Shown here: positions 5,609-13,027 of the stretch, piece after piece
Layout of the letters: each line of letters starts with the position of its first letter
Position numbering within the stretch: the stretch's first letter is position 1
Assembly: GCA_001603165.1 (NCBI GenBank)
Contig: LVBN01000082.1
Location: forward strand, 1-35,453
DNA length: 35,453 nucleotides
Origin: Spirochaetales bacterium Spiro_12
GTDB lineage: Bacteria; Spirochaetota; Spirochaetia; Treponematales; Rectinemataceae
Direction: 5' to 3'
Notes under the pieces: generated by a model
What the model was told of the DNA's origin: nothing
The model's input: only the letters and a program-made list of their open reading frames with translations
The model's database searches: none
Program-made: the position numbers and the translations under genes

Positions 5609-7024
5609 TCAAAAGGAACCGCTCAGACTCAGGCCGAGACTCAGCGAAACCAGGTTCCCTCCGGCGATGTAGGAATACTCGCCGTCATCCGGACCGAAGA
5701 AGAAGATGGGACTCAGGACCAGGGAAAGGTAGTCGCTGAGGCTGTAGGAAATGCTAGGCCTGGCGAGTCCCGACCAGTCGGAGAGATTGGCCACGACCAC
5801 GAGCGAGACGGAGAGGTCCTCGGTAAACAACTCTCCCTTGGAAAGACTCAGCGCCGCGTAGTGACGGCCTGAATTGAGAATGAGCCCTTTTAGGGCGGCG
5901 GCGGCCAGGGCGCCGGGGCCTGTATCCGCCCCTCCAAGGGCCGCGATCGCCGTTCTGGACTGACTTATCAAGGATTCCCGCGTGCTGTCCGCATAGCCTT
6001 CGCCATTGTAGAAGTACTGGCCCAGGGCATTGAAATTGTCGTTCGAATTGCTGTATCTGAAGCCCGCGCTGGCTGAGAAATAATAATCTCCTCTATGATC
6101 GTCGGACGTCGACAATGTCTGGGACGGCCACACCTGGGTCACAAAGGTCTTCGCGCTGCCCCTGGACAGCATCGCCTCGCCGAAAATATCCAAATCGCCG
6201 ATGGGGCCGGTAAGGGTGAGCATGGCCCGCTCGGCGGTATCATACCGGTAATAGGCGCCCAGACCGAGTTCGTAGCCCCCCAGGAGAAACTCCGCCTTGG
6301 CTGCCAAGGCAGTTGTCTCGTACGCAATGTCGTTATTGTCTAGAATAGTATAAAAGTAGAAGTTGTTTTGTGTGCCCAGGACGGGCAGATGGGCTCTGAA
6401 GTTCACCGGACCTTCGCGCTGGGCTTCGGCGTCCAGGATATTGATGGACTCCAGGTTGATCACGTCGGCGGGACTCCAGAAGTAGCCGACGCCCCACTTG
6501 ACCGTGCTCTTCCCGAAGCGGAAGAAGATCCTGTCGTCGAGGTTGAAATCGGAGAAGAGTTCGAAGACTCTTATATTGGGTACTTTTACCGCCGCCGCTC
6601 CCGCGTCGGCGGCTTCGGCGCTGAAGGAAAGCGGCAGGCCGGTCTTTACCGAACCGTAGGCCCTGAAATCCTCGGTGGGGCGGGCGTCGAAGTAGAGGGT
6701 TGAGGCGAGGGAGAGGGCGAGATCCTTTTTTTCGGGATCGATAACGCTTGTACCCCCTGTCCATAGGTCGCTCCAGGTAAAGACGCTGTCCAGGGAGCCG
6801 CTGAAGGAGCCGCCGATCCTGGTTCCCTCCCGTTTCAGTAAGGAGGCCAGGGGGTCGGTGTTTTGGGCGCTCCCTTCCTGTCCGGAAGAGATTTCTTCCA
6901 CCATCTCCTCGCCGAAGAGAAAGTCCATATCGAATTCATCCTGGCTTTCCTGGGCCGAAAGCCCGCTGGCCGCGAAGAGGGCCACCAGAGCCAGGGTTGA
7001 AAAGCGCTTGATTCTTGCGTTCAT
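5609..7024 (-). CDS. Outer-membrane beta-barrel protein, last gene of Lol-like operon
   Basis: A 471-residue exported protein. It has a signal peptide (basic MNARIKR, hydrophobic core, GLSAQ cleavage region near residue 24), an acidic mature N-terminus with FDMDFLFGEEM (31-41), then alternating hydrophobic strands with many Tyr, Ser, Gly and Asp turns. It ends in SGSF, a C-terminal Phe as expected for BAM-inserted barrels. I cannot name a family with certainty; the overall look resembles DUF1302-type or porin-like barrels found beside LolA-like proteins. The ATG at 7024 is preferred over one at 7054 because GGAG lies 9 nt before it and the signal peptide begins there. It is the last gene of the ABC operon and probably the outer-membrane end of that system. 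Confidence 0.8.
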   Translation of the reverse strand: MNARIKRFSTLALVALFAASGLSAQESQDEFDMDFLFGEEMVEEISSGQEGSAQNTDPLASLLKREGTRIGGSFSGSLDSVFTWSDLWTGGTSVIDPEKKDLALSLASTLYFDARPTEDFRAYGSVKTGLPLSFSAEAADAGAAAVKVPNIRVFELFSDFNLDDRIFFRFGKSTVKWGVGYFWSPADVINLESINILDAEAQREGPVNFRAHLPVLGTQNNFYFYTILDNNDIAYETTALAAKAEFLLGGYELGLGAYYRYDTAERAMLTLTGPIGDLDIFGEAMLSRGSAKTFVTQVWPSQTLSTSDDHRGDYYFSASAGFRYSNSNDNFNALGQYFYNGEGYADSTRESLISQSRTAIAALGGADTGPGALAAAALKGLILNSGRHYAALSLSKGELFTEDLSVSLVVVANLSDWSGLARPSISYSLSDYLSLVLSPIFFFGPDDGEYSYIAGGNLVSLSLGLSLSGSF

Positions 7025-7066
7025 GCCGCCGCTCCTATTGCTCCTGTTCACCATCGCCTAAAGGCG

Positions 7067-7855
7067 CTAGCGGTTTACCTGTTCGAGAAAGGCCTTGGTG
7101 AAGACCTTGTCCGGCAACTTTTCCACGTTCTGTTCGGTCATGCTGATCTGGCTCTTCTCCCCCTTGTTGATCTCATCCACGATGAGGATCTGGGATGGCA
7201 GAAGCTTGTTCTCCAGGGACACGTACTTGGGATAGAGGGTGGTGCGCATGAGCCTGCCATTGACCGAGAAAGCTTCTTCCTTGAGAAGCATGGTCCTGTC
7301 CTTGCGGATATGAAGCTTCAGAAGTTCGTACGGCACTTCGTTATTCTTGGCCTTGAGCTCGAGTATCCAGACCGGGTATTGTCCCAGCTTACCTTCGGCT
7401 ATGCTTTGTATGCCGTAGTCGTCCTTGAGGGAGGAGGCGGTGAAATCGGCATTCTTGGCCTCGCTGTTCTGGAGGTTTTCCTTTATCGAAGAGTGGGAGA
7501 ACTTGCGGCTGGTGGGATCGTAAAACCAGACGTTATCGTCTTCGCGCAGGTAGCCCTGGCCTTTGTTCACTTCGGGCAGCATGACGAGGATGGTGAACTG
7601 CTTGCGCGAGTCCCGCCGGAATACCCGCACCTGGGATACGCTCTGCTTTTCGCCGGGTTTCTCCGAGACAATGGTGAAGAGGGCGCTGTAGTCCTTGCCG
7701 GGAAAATTGCCCAGATCGTCCAGTTCCTCGAGGATCTTTTCGGCTGCCTGGTTGCTTAAACCCTGGGCTCCCAGGCTCATGCCGAGACAGAGGATGAGGA
7801 CGGCCGCGACGGCCAGTGCGGGGGTTCGGCGCCGGGATATGTCGATCGTGTTCAT
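7067..7855 (-). CDS. LolA-like outer membrane lipoprotein-sorting protein
   Basis: A periplasmic protein with a signal peptide (basic start, hydrophobic core, SLGAQ) and a LolA/LolB-like half-barrel fold. Its features include DNVWFYDPTSRKFSHSS and the repeated pattern of amphipathic strands seen in the 'outer membrane lipoprotein-sorting protein' (LolA-like) family. It would carry lipoproteins or lipids across the periplasm from the adjacent ABC permeases. The ATG at 7855 (262 residues) has GGAG 5 nt upstream. The ATG at 7870 overlaps the stop of the upstream permease gene (ATGA) and is an alternative that would add 5 residues. It sits between the permease genes and the beta-barrel gene, which links all three. 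Confidence 0.8.
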   Translation of the reverse strand: MNTIDISRRRTPALAVAAVLILCLGMSLGAQGLSNQAAEKILEELDDLGNFPGKDYSALFTIVSEKPGEKQSVSQVRVFRRDSRKQFTILVMLPEVNKGQGYLREDDNVWFYDPTSRKFSHSSIKENLQNSEAKNADFTASSLKDDYGIQSIAEGKLGQYPVWILELKAKNNEVPYELLKLHIRKDRTMLLKEEAFSVNGRLMRTTLYPKYVSLENKLLPSQILIVDEINKGEKSQISMTEQNVEKLPDKVFTKAFLEQVNR

Positions 7856-7866
7856 GGATGCTCCTG

Positions 7867-9189
7867 TCATTTGGCTGTCCTAAGGGCGACGGCGGGTTCC
7901 ATCTTTGCCGCGGCCTTAGCCGGAAAGTATGCCGCCAGAAGGGTGAGTATGGCGATGATCACCACGTTGAAAACCGCTCGTAAGGGGGGGACGAAAAACG
8001 ACAGGTGGCCGTTTTTCATGATCATGAAGGCCGGGGTGTTCATTCCGAAGTCTATAAGGGAAAGCAGGGACATGGCGATAAGGGCGAGTACTATGCCACT
8101 CACCGCGCCGCCAATGGCCAGGAAGAGCGCTTCGTTGAGAAAGAGGGACTTGATTTCCTTGCGCTGGACCCCCAGGGCGCGCATGGTGCCGATTTCCTTG
8201 ATGCGTTCGTACATGACCATCCTGAAAGTGTTGTTGATACCTATCATCACAATGGCGAAGAGGACCAGAAGGATCACCAGGCTGGCTCCGTCCAGAGCCA
8301 CGACAATTTGCTTGGCCTGGGAGACGATATCGTCGATTGTATAAACGCTGTATCTACTCCCTTCCCAGTCTTCGGTCCGTTGGGCCCGCATCATGGCCTG
8401 GAAGGGCGTAGTGGCTGTGCCTTCTTCGCCGGCGGAACGTTCGAAGAGATGGATACCCATGCCCGCCATGGAGGTATAAAGCCTGGCGGCGAAAGGCTCG
8501 GCGGCTTTAAGGTCGCGCAGCATAAAGCCCAGGGCCATATATTCCCCGCTTTTGAGACCGATGGCCTCGTTGATGTAAGCCAGGTCCACGTAGGACATCG
8601 TGGAGCCTATGATGCTCGAATCGACGCTTATGGCCGCCAGGGTGAAGTCGGCGATATTGTTCTGTCCAGTAATGGTTTGGAAGCTGGCGGTGATCCTGTC
8701 TCCGGGTAGGACATTGAGCCGCGAGGCGATTTTCTCCGAGAGGATGATCGAATCGGGGCCGATGGTATCCCAGGAGCCCTGGCGAAGGACAACCCGTTCG
8801 CGCAGGAAGAGGTTGGTGGCCAGATCAAGGCCGGTGAGAGTCTGGCGTATGGTCTTGCCTTCGAAATAGAGGGAGGCCGAGACTTCGCTGGTTTTGGTGG
8901 CGAATTCGTAGTCCAGGCCGGAATCCCTCAGGGCCGAGAAGATGATGGAGTCGTCCCGGATCACCGAAAGTCGCTTGCCCGAGGCTGTTTTCTCCGCCCC
9001 CTGCACGAAGACGTGGCCCGCCATGAGGTAGGAGAAATTCTCCGATACGTTTTCGATAAAGGCGCCGGCGAATCCGTTGATCAGGGTCACGATCATGATT
9101 CCGAAGGCGATGGCTCCTCCCAGGAGGAAGCTGCGCTTTTTTTGACGCGAAAGGTTTCTGAGGGCTATACGGGGTATGATGAATTTCAT
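7867..9189 (-). CDS. FtsX/LolE-type ABC transporter permease (second)
   Basis: A 440-residue inner-membrane permease of the MacB/LolCE type. It has one N-terminal membrane helix (about 22-45) after the motif IALRNLSRQKKRSF, a large periplasmic domain (about 50-300), then three C-terminal helices with the FtsX coupling segment MYERIKEIGTMRALG. This group mechanically extracts lipoproteins or lipids from the outer leaflet of the inner membrane; it is not a channel. The start has a GGAG ribosome site. It lies 10 bp after the first permease and abuts the LolA-like gene, so it is likely the LolE-like half of a heterodimer. Its substrate is not determined by sequence. Confidence 0.9.
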   Translation of the reverse strand: MKFIIPRIALRNLSRQKKRSFLLGGAIAFGIMIVTLINGFAGAFIENVSENFSYLMAGHVFVQGAEKTASGKRLSVIRDDSIIFSALRDSGLDYEFATKTSEVSASLYFEGKTIRQTLTGLDLATNLFLRERVVLRQGSWDTIGPDSIILSEKIASRLNVLPGDRITASFQTITGQNNIADFTLAAISVDSSIIGSTMSYVDLAYINEAIGLKSGEYMALGFMLRDLKAAEPFAARLYTSMAGMGIHLFERSAGEEGTATTPFQAMMRAQRTEDWEGSRYSVYTIDDIVSQAKQIVVALDGASLVILLVLFAIVMIGINNTFRMVMYERIKEIGTMRALGVQRKEIKSLFLNEALFLAIGGAVSGIVLALIAMSLLSLIDFGMNTPAFMIMKNGHLSFFVPPLRAVFNVVIIAILTLLAAYFPAKAAAKMEPAVALRTAK

Positions 9190-9199
9190 TGCGTCGCTC

Positions 9200-10741
9200 C
9201 TATTCCTGCTGCATGGCCCTGACGGGTTGGATTCTCAGGGCGACCGAAACGGGGTACAGATGGGCAAGGTAGCCTACCAGCAGCATGGCAAGCAGGGCGC
9301 TCAGGAAATTTACGGGGGTCACAAAAGGCGAGAGGTACGTACCCCCGAAAAGGACTTCCAGGAAGGGATTGCCCGCCTTGATGCGCAGGGCTCGGAGTAC
9401 CAGGGTTACGACGGTGCCCAGCCCGGCGCCCAGGAGGGAGAATGTCCCCGCGAGCACCAGGGCCTCGGCGGCGAAAAGACGGCGTATGAAGCTCCGCCCG
9501 GCGCCTATGGCCCTCATGGTGCCTATCTCGCCGGTCCGCTCGATCACCGATATGACGAAGGTATTCATGATTATGATGACGGCGACGATGGAGAGGATGA
9601 CGATGGCGACGGTGAACACGATGCGGATGACATCCACCGATTGGCCATAGGGGCCCGCGGCGGCCAGCCAGTCGCCCGCCCTGGCGGCGATTCCCTGCTC
9701 GGCGAAGCTTTTGTTGAGGGATGCGATGAAGGGGGCGACGGCTGCCTCGTTCACTGTGCGGACAACGATGAACTGCCAGGCTCCGGTATCCGCGGTGTTG
9801 GCCAATTCCCGGGCCCTGGTGTCGGACAGCTGGGTCTGGAGGGCCTTTTCGTCGAATCCTCCCTGTGCTGGGGCCGCATCGAAAAGCTCTTCGCCGAAGA
9901 GTGAGTCGAAATCGTCGGTGGCGAGCATGGCGGTCTGGGATTCTTCGAGGCTGATGTCCTCGTTGGCGCCCACGGTCATGCCGGCCATGACCCTGAGGGT
10001 GTCGATGTCGATAAAAGCCATCTGCTCCGGGGTAGTCGTATCGCCTTTTTGCTTATAGGTGCCTACGATGGGGATTTCCCTGAGCTTCATGCCGCCCGAG
10101 GAGAAGCCCTGAACGACCAGTTTGTCCCCGACCCTAAGCTCGCGCTTCATCCAGTCGGATAGCTTCGCCAGCTGGGATTCGTTGATCACCAAGCCCGTCT
10201 GGCCCGGCTTGAGAGCCTCGCCGGAGCTGATCTCCGTGGAATCGAAGACGGTCCAATAATCCCGCGGGTCTATGCCGAAGAAAAAGAGGAAGCGGGCCAT
10301 GGCTGTTTCATTGGACAGTTCCCCATCCTTCGTTTCATCCTCGAGGCTCTCGGTCCCGGAGGAGGAGAGGGATCCTGAACCTTCGTCACGCATGGCGATG
10401 CCGAAACCCGTGGCAAGGCTGGTGACGCTTTTGACCTGAGGCGAAGCCTTTATCTGTGCCATGACGGTATCGAACTGGGGAATGGTGGGCGTGGCGGCAA
10501 GGCCCCCCACCGAAGTGACGCCGAAGAGCGAGACATCCCCTTCTTGGGATATGCCGGATATGAAAACGTTGCCGGTGTAGTTTTCTATGAAGGATTTTCG
10601 AATTCCCTGGCGGGACGCGTCGATAAAGCCATTGCCCACCACCAGGATCATCGAACCCAATGCGAGAAGAATGCCAATGATAAGGCTTTTCGAACGGTGT
10701 TCGAAGAGATTGCGAAAGGCTATGCGTAAGATCGCTGCCAT
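9200..10741 (-). CDS. FtsX/LolC-type ABC transporter permease (first)
   Basis: A 513-residue permease with the same plan as the next gene: the N-terminal motif RIAFRNLFEHRSKS and one helix, a large periplasmic domain, and three C-terminal helices around the coupling motif IERTGEIGTMRAIGAG. It is longer than usual because of two acidic, low-complexity insertions in the periplasmic part: one near residues 119-145 (Ser/Glu-rich) and one near 262-300 that contains DDFDSLFGEELFD (276-288). That motif closely resembles one in the outer-membrane barrel of the same operon. The AAGGAG ribosome site and a 3-bp gap after the ATPase gene indicate tight coupling. It is inferred to be the LolC-like partner. 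Confidence 0.9.
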   Translation of the reverse strand: MAAILRIAFRNLFEHRSKSLIIGILLALGSMILVVGNGFIDASRQGIRKSFIENYTGNVFISGISQEGDVSLFGVTSVGGLAATPTIPQFDTVMAQIKASPQVKSVTSLATGFGIAMRDEGSGSLSSSGTESLEDETKDGELSNETAMARFLFFFGIDPRDYWTVFDSTEISSGEALKPGQTGLVINESQLAKLSDWMKRELRVGDKLVVQGFSSGGMKLREIPIVGTYKQKGDTTTPEQMAFIDIDTLRVMAGMTVGANEDISLEESQTAMLATDDFDSLFGEELFDAAPAQGGFDEKALQTQLSDTRARELANTADTGAWQFIVVRTVNEAAVAPFIASLNKSFAEQGIAARAGDWLAAAGPYGQSVDVIRIVFTVAIVILSIVAVIIIMNTFVISVIERTGEIGTMRAIGAGRSFIRRLFAAEALVLAGTFSLLGAGLGTVVTLVLRALRIKAGNPFLEVLFGGTYLSPFVTPVNFLSALLAMLLVGYLAHLYPVSVALRIQPVRAMQQE

Positions 10742-10744
10742 AGC

Positions 10745-11467
10745 CTACTCCTTGACCTGATCCATCGAATCCGCTCCGTTGAGCCTTCTGTTCTCAACGA
10801 TAAGGCCATCCTTGAGCCTGATGATATGGTCGGCCACATCCACGATCTTGGCGTCGTGGGTGGAAAATATGAATGTGGTATTAAGTTCCCGGTTGATTTT
10901 CTTCATCAATTCTATGATCTGTTCTCCGGTGCTTGAATCCAAATTGGCGGTGGGTTCGTCGGCCAGGACGATACCCGGCTTGGTGACAAGGGCCCTGGCG
11001 ATCGCCACGCGCTGGCGCTGACCGCCCGAAAGTTCGTTGGGTTTGTGGGTTTTCCAATCGCCCAGCCCTACTTCGGCGATGAGCCAGTCGATCCATTCTT
11101 TTTTCTCGGCCTGCGAAACCTTGGTCCTGCCCAAAAGGAGGGGGAATTCGATATTCTCCCATACATTGAGCACGGGTATTAGGTTGAAGCTCTGAAAAAT
11201 GAAGCCCAGAACCTCGTGGCGGAGCCGCGTGAGTTCCTTGTCGGAGAGCCCGGAGGTGGGTCTGTCCTCGATCAGGACTTCGCCGGCACTGGGTTTGTCG
11301 ATGAGGCCGATCATGTTGAGTATGGTGGACTTGCCCGAGCCGGAGGGGCCGGCGATGGAGATGAAATCGCCCTTTTCGATGGAAAAACTAACGCCTTTTA
11401 CCGCGTGGACTTCGACTTTACCCAGGGGGTAGGTTTTTTTTACATCCCGTACTTCGATGATGGACAT
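10745..11467 (-). CDS. LolD/MacB-type ABC transporter ATP-binding protein
   Basis: A 240-residue cytosolic ATPase that powers the two downstream permeases. It shows Walker A GPSGSGKST (40-48), the ABC signature LSGGQ (146-150), Walker B IVLADE (166-171) and the typical LolD/MacB stretch DEPTANLDSSTGEQI, followed by the switch His in FSTHD. Length and the N-terminal pattern (VKKTYPLGKVEVHAVKGVS) match the MacB/LolD branch. It is the first gene of the operon, with an AAGGAG ribosome site. The 330-bp region upstream carries its likely promoter. Confidence 0.95.
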   Translation of the reverse strand: MSIIEVRDVKKTYPLGKVEVHAVKGVSFSIEKGDFISIAGPSGSGKSTILNMIGLIDKPSAGEVLIEDRPTSGLSDKELTRLRHEVLGFIFQSFNLIPVLNVWENIEFPLLLGRTKVSQAEKKEWIDWLIAEVGLGDWKTHKPNELSGGQRQRVAIARALVTKPGIVLADEPTANLDSSTGEQIIELMKKINRELNTTFIFSTHDAKIVDVADHIIRLKDGLIVENRRLNGADSMDQVKE

Positions 11468-11575
11468 GGTTTCTCCTTAAGCCTTGTTCCCTTTGGCTTT
11501 TGTTCCGGGCCTTATGCAAGCGCCCTACTGTGCCCGTGCGGCTTTGAGCCTGTTTGGGGACTGCGTTCGGATATA

Positions 11576-11605
11576 AAAATAGCTATGAATTGATCTTTTA
11601 AGCAA
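11576..11605 (-). promoter_or_regulatory. Possible promoter of the Lol-like operon
   Basis: The minus strand reads TTGCTT (11605-11600), an 18-bp spacer and TATTTT (11581-11576), inside the only AT-rich part of the 11468-11797 gap. The rest of this gap holds a GC-rich inverted repeat nearer to the aminotransferase gene and no credible coding frame. This is a weak promoter match. Confidence 0.35.
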
Positions 11606-11676
11606 CCAAATTGGAGGAAAATGTGAAAAAGACGCAAAGTCCGGCAAGGGCCGCGGATTGTGCCATGTGACGACGC

Positions 11677-11736
11677 GGGCCGCGGGCCCTGCGGCGGGCT
11701 TATGGAGGGCCGGAGTTCCATGTAGGCCCGCGGCCC
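11677..11736. repeat. GC-rich 12-bp inverted repeat with nested stem
   Basis: gggccgcgggcc (11677-11688) pairs perfectly with ggcccgcggccc (11725-11736). Within the 36-nt interval a smaller pair forms on the minus strand (ATGGA with TCCAT). No T-run follows on either strand. It lies after the aminotransferase gene and upstream of the Lol-like operon promoter, so it could stabilise or end the aminotransferase transcript. Confidence 0.5.
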
Positions 11737-11797
11737 TGAAACTGCCGGGCCCAGCCTGTATCCCGCATCCCGCAAGCCCGGGGCGATTCGGCGCAGC

Positions 11798-13027
11798 TTA
11801 TTCCAGGGCTTCCCCGATAACCAGCGCAAGGCGCCTGATCCCTTCCTCGATCTGCTCGAGGGAGGAGTAGGAGAAGTTGATCCTCATGGAATTGTGTTCG
11901 GGATTGTCGAAATAGAAGGCCGAACCGGAGACGTAGGCTACCTTCTTTTCGATTGCCTTGTAGAGGAGCTCGTCGGCGTTTATGGCGGCGGGCAGGGAGA
12001 GCCAGAGAAAGAGGCCCCCTTCGGGCTTGGTCCATGAAAGGTCGCCCCGGGCGGGCATGTGACGCTCCAGCTGTTCGAGCATGTAACCCCGCTTTTTTTG
12101 GTACAGAGCTCGGGTTTTGCCCACCACTTCCTCCAGTTTTCCCGCCGCCATGTATTCGGCCAGCCAGAGCTGGGTGAAGGGGCTGGTGCAGAGATCCATG
12201 GCCTGCTTTGCCGTGACGAACTTATCGATGATATCAGGCCTGGCCAGCAACCAGCCGATGCGGGTGCCGGGGGCGAGGATCTTGGAGAATGTTTTGAGGT
12301 TAATGACGTTGCCCTGGGCTGCGCCTTCGGAATCCAGCTGATAGATGGAAGGGACGCTCTCGCCCATGAAGCGGATTTCCCGATACGGCGAATCCTCCAC
12401 GAGGATGAGACCCTCCCTGTAAGAGAATTCCAGCAGAGCCTTGCGCTTTTCCAGGCTCCAGCAAATGCCTGTGGGATTCTGGAAGTCCGGGATCACGTAG
12501 ATGTACTTGATTCTGGCTCCGCCGGCCTTGGCCTCCGCGTAGCGGCGCTCCAGTTCGACCATGTCGAAGCCGTCTTTTTCGGGTCCGAAGGGTATGCCTA
12601 GGATTTTCCCCCGGTAAGACTGGATAGCCTGAATAGCGCCGATATAGGTAGGCCTGCCGGCGATAACCCAGTCGCCGGGGTCGAGAAAGAGCTTAGGCAG
12701 CATATCCAGGGCTTGCTGGCTGGCCGAGGTGATGAGGAGGTTTTCCGGCTTGGCTTTTACCCCGTGGCTCGCTTCATAGCGCAGAAGGGCTTCCCTCAGG
12801 GCTATATCTCCCTCGGTGGTGCCGTACTGGAGCGCCTTGGCGGCGTGCTTGGCGAAGACACGCTCGGAGGCGGCGCGCAACTCTTCCACAGGGAAGGTCT
12901 CGGGGGCGGGCAGGCCGCCGCCGAAGGAAATGATATCCGGGCGCTGGGTGAGTTTGAGGATTTCCCGGATCTGGGATTTTTTCATGTTCTCCGTGTTAGC
13001 CGAGTATTTGGGTGTGATCGCTGCCAT
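11798..13027 (-). CDS. PLP-dependent aminotransferase (class I/II, LysN/MocR-type domain)
   Basis: Fold-type I aminotransferase of 409 residues, acting in the cytosol on amino acids such as 2-aminoadipate, aromatic or branched-chain substrates. It has the N-terminal signature DIISFGGGLPAPETFP (31-46), YGTTEGDIALREAL, SASQQALDML, FQNPTG (182-187), the PLP-ring Asp in EDSPYRE (211-217) and the Schiff-base Lys in TFSKILAPGTRIGW (K249). The lack of an N-terminal winged-helix domain separates it from MocR regulators. The ribosome site GGGAGG lies 6 nt before the ATG. It stands alone with its own promoter. Given the aromatic block further right it could transaminate phenylpyruvate, but that is only a possibility. 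Confidence 0.9.
   Translation of the reverse strand: MAAITPKYSANTENMKKSQIREILKLTQRPDIISFGGGLPAPETFPVEELRAASERVFAKHAAKALQYGTTEGDIALREALLRYEASHGVKAKPENLLITSASQQALDMLPKLFLDPGDWVIAGRPTYIGAIQAIQSYRGKILGIPFGPEKDGFDMVELERRYAEAKAGGARIKYIYVIPDFQNPTGICWSLEKRKALLEFSYREGLILVEDSPYREIRFMGESVPSIYQLDSEGAAQGNVINLKTFSKILAPGTRIGWLLARPDIIDKFVTAKQAMDLCTSPFTQLWLAEYMAAGKLEEVVGKTRALYQKKRGYMLEQLERHMPARGDLSWTKPEGGLFLWLSLPAAINADELLYKAIEKKVAYVSGSAFYFDNPEHNSMRINFSYSSLEQIEEGIRRLALVIGEALE

Follow-up and report, generated by a model that had tools for sequence, protein, structure and literature searches.

The window analysed here is the whole 35,453-nucleotide stretch of contig LVBN01000082.1 from Spirochaetales bacterium Spiro_12. 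On its minus strand, positions 5609-11467 hold a head-to-tail row of five genes: an ATPase, the permeases P1 and P2, a LolA-like carrier and an outer-membrane barrel. P1 and the barrel have in common a short acidic peptide, termed the tag below. The operon begins with an ATP-binding cassette (ABC) ATPase of the LolD/MacB type (240 residues, 10745..11467; PF00005, 3.6e-34), followed by P1 (513 residues, 9200..10741; PF02687, 7.4e-17), an FtsX-type permease with an extra, tag-bearing periplasmic insert, and P2 (440 residues, 7867..9189; PF02687, 1.1e-18), an FtsX-type permease without tag. The LolA-like periplasmic carrier comes next (267 residues, 7067..7870, second ATG at 7855; PF17131, 1.1e-35, 123 bits); its N-terminus resembles a signal peptide, no lipobox Cys is seen in it, and phmmer matches it to PDB 3buu (NE2245) at 9.2e-22. 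The last gene encodes the barrel (481 residues, 5609..7054, second ATG at 7024), which ends in a C-terminal Phe. The ATPase and P1 genes are 3 bp apart, P1 and P2 10 bp, P2 and the carrier -4 bp (first ATG) or 11 bp (second ATG), and the carrier and the barrel 12 bp (first barrel ATG) or 42 bp (second ATG). A first-pass annotation, made from the sequence alone, had placed all five genes correctly; its gaps of 3-42 bp hold for the inner starts, the first ATGs giving -4 and 12 bp.

Read side by side, P1 contains DFDSLFGEE and the mature N-terminus of the barrel DMDFLFGEE. The underlying pattern, [DE]x[LMIF]F[GSADE][DE], is located in the flexible periplasmic insert of P1 and just after the signal peptide of the barrel. 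In P1, the tag DDFDSLFGEELF (about residues 276-287, with an L281-F282 core) is encoded at 9879..9916 on the minus strand, with DxLFG[DE][DE] at 9888-9907; in the barrel, EFDMDFLFGEEMVE (about residues 40-53, the core being L46-F47) is encoded at 6896..6937 on the same strand, with this pattern at 6906-6925. The P1 profile, aligned to LolF (9w37), shows about 70 extra residues between LolF positions 213 and 247, an insert that carries the tag and that LolF lacks. The AlphaFold2 model of P1 has a predicted local distance difference test score (pLDDT) of 83.0, with lower confidence at about residues 250-316, and the barrel tag falls within residues 32-63, where pLDDT is mostly under 50. In an outer-membrane barrel, the N-terminus of the mature protein points into the periplasm, so the barrel tag would be in reach there. 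F282 is invariant in 47 aligned P1 proteins and F47 in 54 aligned barrels, with L46 and G48 conserved in at least 90%, both stretches being otherwise variable. Searched as DNA through the 2.31 Mb genome, DxLFG[DE][DE] occurs at two sites only, one each in the P1 and barrel genes; the pattern was read off these two tags, so both matches are expected and the news lies in the absence of others.

The gene set is more than a chance arrangement and recurs across the phylum. A barrel query finds matches in 47 of 58 relatives, and the order ATPase, P1, P2, LolA-like gene, barrel returns in the fetched loci. The barrel-selected set comprises 80 loci kept of 121 confirmed; more than 5.5 kb of upstream sequence is available in 44 of the 80, and all four other genes lie in order in 42 of these 44. 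The two exceptions are L087, in which a broken frame offsets the barrel start, and Treponema vincentii L147, in which the barrel stands alone. With P1 as query, 141 of the 296 phylum genomes covered have a match (E up to 1e-20), and 79 P1 loci were fetched down the match ranking, several of them from one genome (a 101-base filler, L267, is unused). In 73 of the 79, P1 is followed by P2, by a gene for a LolA-like protein and by another open reading frame of more than 250 residues; the barrel profile matches 68 of these 73 additional frames, and the last residue is aromatic in 68. Among the remaining six, L221, L233 and L254 reach the contig end soon after P1 or P2, and in L196, L234 and L264 the LolA-like gene or the barrel is not in the expected place. 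The ATPase gene lies directly upstream of P1 in 52 of the 79 loci only; in a second subfamily it is often downstream, on the opposite strand. Both selections bear out the co-conservation of the barrel on which the first-pass annotation had staked its reading. From gene order, the five genes are a conserved unit in this phylum and a putatively complete pump-carrier-barrel route. In L050/L084 (2700-4787), P2 and the LolA-like protein read as a single 696-residue frame, which is either a genuine tethered carrier or an error in the sequence; in the search for natural carrier-barrel or carrier-P1 fusions, this P2-LolA frame in one genome and overlap artefacts are all that was found.

The tag is retained within this unit. 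The sets found number 171 by P1, of which 149 are unique by P1 C-terminus and 133 have P2, the LolA-like protein and the barrel. A 12-residue tag profile was trained on 71 barrel tails only; these barrels belong to the 133 sets, so the barrel scores are inflated, and the scores of P1, P2, the carrier and the ATPase are outside training. On P1, this barrel-only profile reaches a median best score of 17.6 bits, against 0.3 for P2, 0.1 for the LolA-like protein, -4.1 for the ATPase and 1.0 for shuffled P1. The top P1 match lies 200-275 residues from the P1 C-terminus in 125 of the 133 sets, and both tags exceed 8 bits in 113, or in 58 of 73 when the P1-selected loci are taken alone. Tags in tandem repeat are present in P1, RND (resistance-nodulation-division) pumps or barrels of some loci (L197, L203-L209, L338), an arrangement that would fit multivalent docking.

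The residues around the core vary in concert within operons. Into the covariation test entered 119 pairs in which both motifs exceed 5 bits. With LFG left out, the tag flanks score 10.12 in matched and 2.24 in mismatched pairs (P at most 5e-5; 43 representatives, P2 identity <50%), and the residues downstream of the LFG core alone give P 0.002 for within-operon agreement. The score of aligned minus column-shuffled flanks is 13.25 versus 6.59 (P 1e-4; 42 representatives). Covarying examples are L070, with DDDLFGAPETVDLA in P1 and DDDLFGAPETVEEA in the barrel, and L213, with DDLDSLFSDAEDL and DDLDSLFSEAEDV. In T. vincentii OMZ 806, P1 (SEDELFSED, L372) and the barrel (LEDELFGGD, L147) are separated by about 1.8 Mb in record coordinates, with the tag kept in both, the P1 reading frame being interrupted in the record. 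Judged from these alignments, the tag flanks covary within operons beyond what composition accounts for.

The Spiro_12 genome encodes three sets of pump, LolA-like protein and barrel: the window operon, a second ABC set on contig C35 (L042) and an RND set on contig C48 (L044). The C48 set (6949-11846) consists of an HAE3-type RND pump, a DUF1329/LolA-like protein and a DUF1302 barrel, with matches to MMPL/HAE3, to PF17131 with DUF1329 and to DUF1302, and an FGFG tag is located in both pump and barrel. RND sets have a tag of their own, FGF[GDAS] with acidic neighbours, in the periplasmic loop of the pump and at the N-terminus of the barrel, as in L332 (DFGFGFGFEDPES and GFGFGFEDEPD); L310 carries a Trp version, DDWGS, in both proteins. 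A simple FxF regular expression has a high background in RND segments outside the loop, 0.38 per 180 residues, and gave way to a profile for which 35 barrel tails served as training set; 41 of the 57 RND loci have an adjacent barrel homologue. In 40 of these 41, the top match of the RND-barrel profile is the loop of the RND pump (median 16.7 bits; shuffled 2.8). FGF occurs in 0/133 P1 loops and 6/133 ABC barrel tails, and the ABC and RND profiles score each other's system weakly, with medians of 5-7 bits. The C35 set (7392-12487) is again a five-gene ABC, LolA-like and barrel set, whose 365-residue barrel has no Pfam match. In L317 (3363-6821, minus strand), the RND pump and LolA-like protein are kept with no linked barrel, and the tag is degenerate (TDDFGVFKTF, 1.9 bits), a state that would be consistent with decay once the partner had been lost.

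The barrel, called by eye in the first-pass annotation, is backed by an AlphaFold2 model with 18 strands (mean pLDDT 88.7, predicted template modelling score 0.81), preceded by the signal peptide and the low-confidence tail at residues 32-63. The nearest solved folds are AlgE, MOMP and the OprD/Occ porins, with a Foldseek E of about 1e-12 for AlgE and MOMP and a VIA Z of about 20 against the Occ porins. The fold is like that of the 18-stranded AlgE and OprD/Occ type porins, but identity to them is only about 7-16%, and the tagged tail (residues 40-53) is outside the aligned range. By sequence, the barrel has no match in the PDB and none in Pfam at E up to 1; DUF1302 is matched by 10 of 54 barrel homologues (E up to 0.01; best E 1.2e-5), the window barrel not among them. 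From the model and these homologues, the window barrel is predicted to be a porin-like protein of 18 strands and, distantly, of the DUF1302 type. The operon thus resembles the DUF1302/DUF1329/HAE3-RND exporters, such as AmeABCD, with an ABC pump as its source of power.

AmeABCD of Castellaniella defragrans is presented as a DUF1302 barrel (AmeA), a DUF1329/LolA-superfamily protein (AmeB), AmeC and an HAE3 RND pump (AmeD), with a role in the export of apolar compounds assigned by genetics (PMC6394551). The C48 RND set is the spirochaete counterpart of AmeABCD. The window operon likewise unites an inner-membrane pump, an adjacent LolA-superfamily carrier (PF17131) and a putatively DUF1302-related barrel in one cassette; it differs in that the pump genes are of the ABC/FtsX kind, LolCDE/MacB type, rather than HAE3 RND, in that AmeC is missing, and in that pump and barrel share a tag, the comparison for the tag being with the pumps of two DUF1302/MMPL cassettes outside the phylum, which have none. 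It is best described as an ABC-driven relative of the AmeABCD kind of exporter. Another likeness is found within the spirochaetes: the BBJ23-29 cluster of Borrelia, compared by description only, also brings together an ABC transporter resembling MacB, a carrier resembling LolA and a barrel of the outer membrane. That barrel is of the Omp85 type and the permease is a proposed homodimer, whereas the window barrel is porin-like with 18 strands and P1 and P2 are distinct proteins; the word 'motif' is absent from the text of that paper (PMC13078400).

The operon is, on balance, probably a dedicated trans-envelope exporter in which the tags of P1 and of the barrel both dock the carrier and the tag acts as the address of the route. 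The parts, their order, the tags, their covariation and the system-specific form of the tag can all be read from the sequence; the same peptide on pump and pore suggests that the carrier recognizes both ends by one shared tag. In Escherichia coli, the Hook of LolC enters the LolA cavity and recruits LolA (PMC10865981), and the P1 tag is likened to this Hook peptide as a putative docking site. The pump would extract from the inner membrane a hydrophobic molecule, be it a lipid, a glycolipid or an apolar metabolite. The carrier, still empty, would dock on the P1 tag, as the Hook enters LolA, and would then be loaded. At the outer membrane, the loaded carrier would meet the same tag on the barrel, which would compete for the site, displace the cargo and hand it to the barrel. 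The sequence of the tag could then be the address that separates parallel carrier routes in one periplasm. By analogy with the LolA fold and with AmeABCD, the cargo is likely a hydrophobic lipid or metabolite. The wider proposal, that donor and acceptor share one cognate address tag per route (LF[G/S]-acidic in the ABC sets, FGFG in the RND sets), giving hand-off by mimicry and insulation between routes, stands evenly poised between true and false.

The tag reading bears on two questions of the field, namely how a LolA-type carrier gives up its cargo at an outer membrane that has no LolB, and what keeps parallel carriers from cross-talk. Were it true, one short peptide would account for loading, unloading and specificity, by a logic that is alike in two unrelated pump classes, ABC and RND. 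Spirochaetes are described as devoid of lipopolysaccharide (PMC11784454), and an ABC-driven counterpart of the DUF1302/RND exporters, present in oral Treponema too, is a candidate route for the lipids of the spirochaete outer membrane. New here is the short acidic peptide common to pump and barrel, the architecture itself being a variation of a known kind; no such shared motif was found in the searchable literature, in which few papers were accessible in depth, and those in part.

Several observations weigh against this reading of the tag. Composition explains part of the within-operon likeness, as column-shuffled flanks are also alike in matched pairs (z 5.9). In 20 of the 133 sets, one or both proteins miss the 8-bit cut (four with truncated P1), and L261 has neither tag. 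C35-type sets lack any such tag in 7/7 loci, so the tag is not needed for the architecture of pump, LolA-like protein and barrel in general, and a tag common to all LolA-like systems is rejected. Of the 16 RND loci that have no barrel next to them, 15 keep the tag all the same (>10 bits), and outside the phylum the RND tag is not in the pump of two DUF1302/MMPL cassettes (Haliovirga, Aromatoleum). The carrier as binding partner of the tag is a guess, and the cargo is a deduction only. The DUF1302 protein of Haliovirga (Fusobacteriota; L377, 2666-3904) has EDSLFDSAMEM just after its signal peptide, though the RND pump there is without tag.

An unlikely but serious alternative is that the tags are real and bind some other partner, be it a factor common to both in the periplasm or cell wall or a divalent cation, or that a dimeric adaptor links them to each other, and that they so hold pump and barrel as a fixed trans-envelope complex. 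Tags rich in Asp and Glu, sometimes in tandem, are consistent with this, as are the tags kept at RND loci without an adjacent barrel and the conjectural status of the carrier contact. However, the invariant part of the tag is a hydrophobic Leu-Phe core, ABC and RND cassettes alike encode just one soluble partner, the LolA-like protein, and a general factor would not account for two system-specific tags.

Comparably doubtful is a role in efflux or detoxification, in which the operon would pump out small hydrophobic molecules in the manner of AmeABCD or MacB, with the barrel as exit channel and no role in building the outer membrane. The barrel family is related to DUF1302, deletion of AmeABCD lowers monoterpene tolerance (PMC6394551), and the ATPase also scores with the MacB and DarD models of NCBIfam. 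Of the two genes flanking the operon, however, one encodes by Pfam an aminotransferase and the other a flavodiiron-like protein, neither being a resistance gene, and presence across much of the phylum, Treponema included, suggests a housekeeping cargo. MacAB-TolC efflux as such is rejected, with Pfam finding no domains of a membrane-fusion protein (MacA) or a TolC-type factor in the five operon proteins and the two flanking ones.

A second lipoprotein route, with the barrel as the outer-membrane acceptor replacing LolB, was the view favoured in the first-pass annotation and has also been proposed for Borrelia BBJ25; it is now distinctly improbable. LolCDE-LolA(-LolB) and the window operon have in common FtsX-type permeases, a LolD-type ATPase and a LolA-fold carrier, LolD is the top-scoring model of the window ATPase (TIGR02211, 233.5 bits, below the cut-off of 307.75), and Borrelia is described as lacking LolB (PMC13078400, PMC11784454). 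Yet the operon departs from the Lol system in its carrier, in having a barrel in place of LolB, and in scores far below the Lol equivalog cut-offs. A Lol-like trio of permease, ATPase and permease is located elsewhere in the genome, on contig C37, whose permeases reach 170 and 173 bits with lolCE over nearly the whole model, below the cut-off of 362; against the same cut-off, the window permeases reach 61.9 and 50.7 bits, with their best stretches in the C-terminal part only. The C37 ATPase also matches LolD best, and since it too misses the cut-off, at 255.5 bits, the LolD equivalog threshold is a poor discriminator in this phylum. The PF03548 LolA match of the genome is on contig C40, and the window carrier matches PF17131 only, not PF03548, in Pfam. 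A separate lolCDE-lolA set, which the first-pass annotation had named as an objection to its own view, is thus present in part, in the form of the C37 trio and the C40 protein, both below equivalog cut-offs. A plain Lol pathway is rejected for the window operon on these grounds; of the complete trans-envelope route first envisaged, the conserved set of pump, carrier and barrel stands, and the Lol pathway with a barrel replacing LolB is not supported.

It is hardly credible that the shared motif arises incidentally from acidic tails that are disordered and of low complexity: the tag does sit in low-confidence acidic stretches, and matched pairs resemble each other more even by composition alone, but the Phe is invariant in both proteins, P2 and shuffled P1 give no signal, the aligned flanks exceed the column-shuffled ones (P 1e-4), and the genome has only the two sites.

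A promoter scan of the operon found no sigma-70-like site, and its terminator-like sites are uninformative. Elsewhere in the window, a tmRNA gene lies at 1014-1372 on the minus strand, with the tag peptide ANNNGNLALAA.

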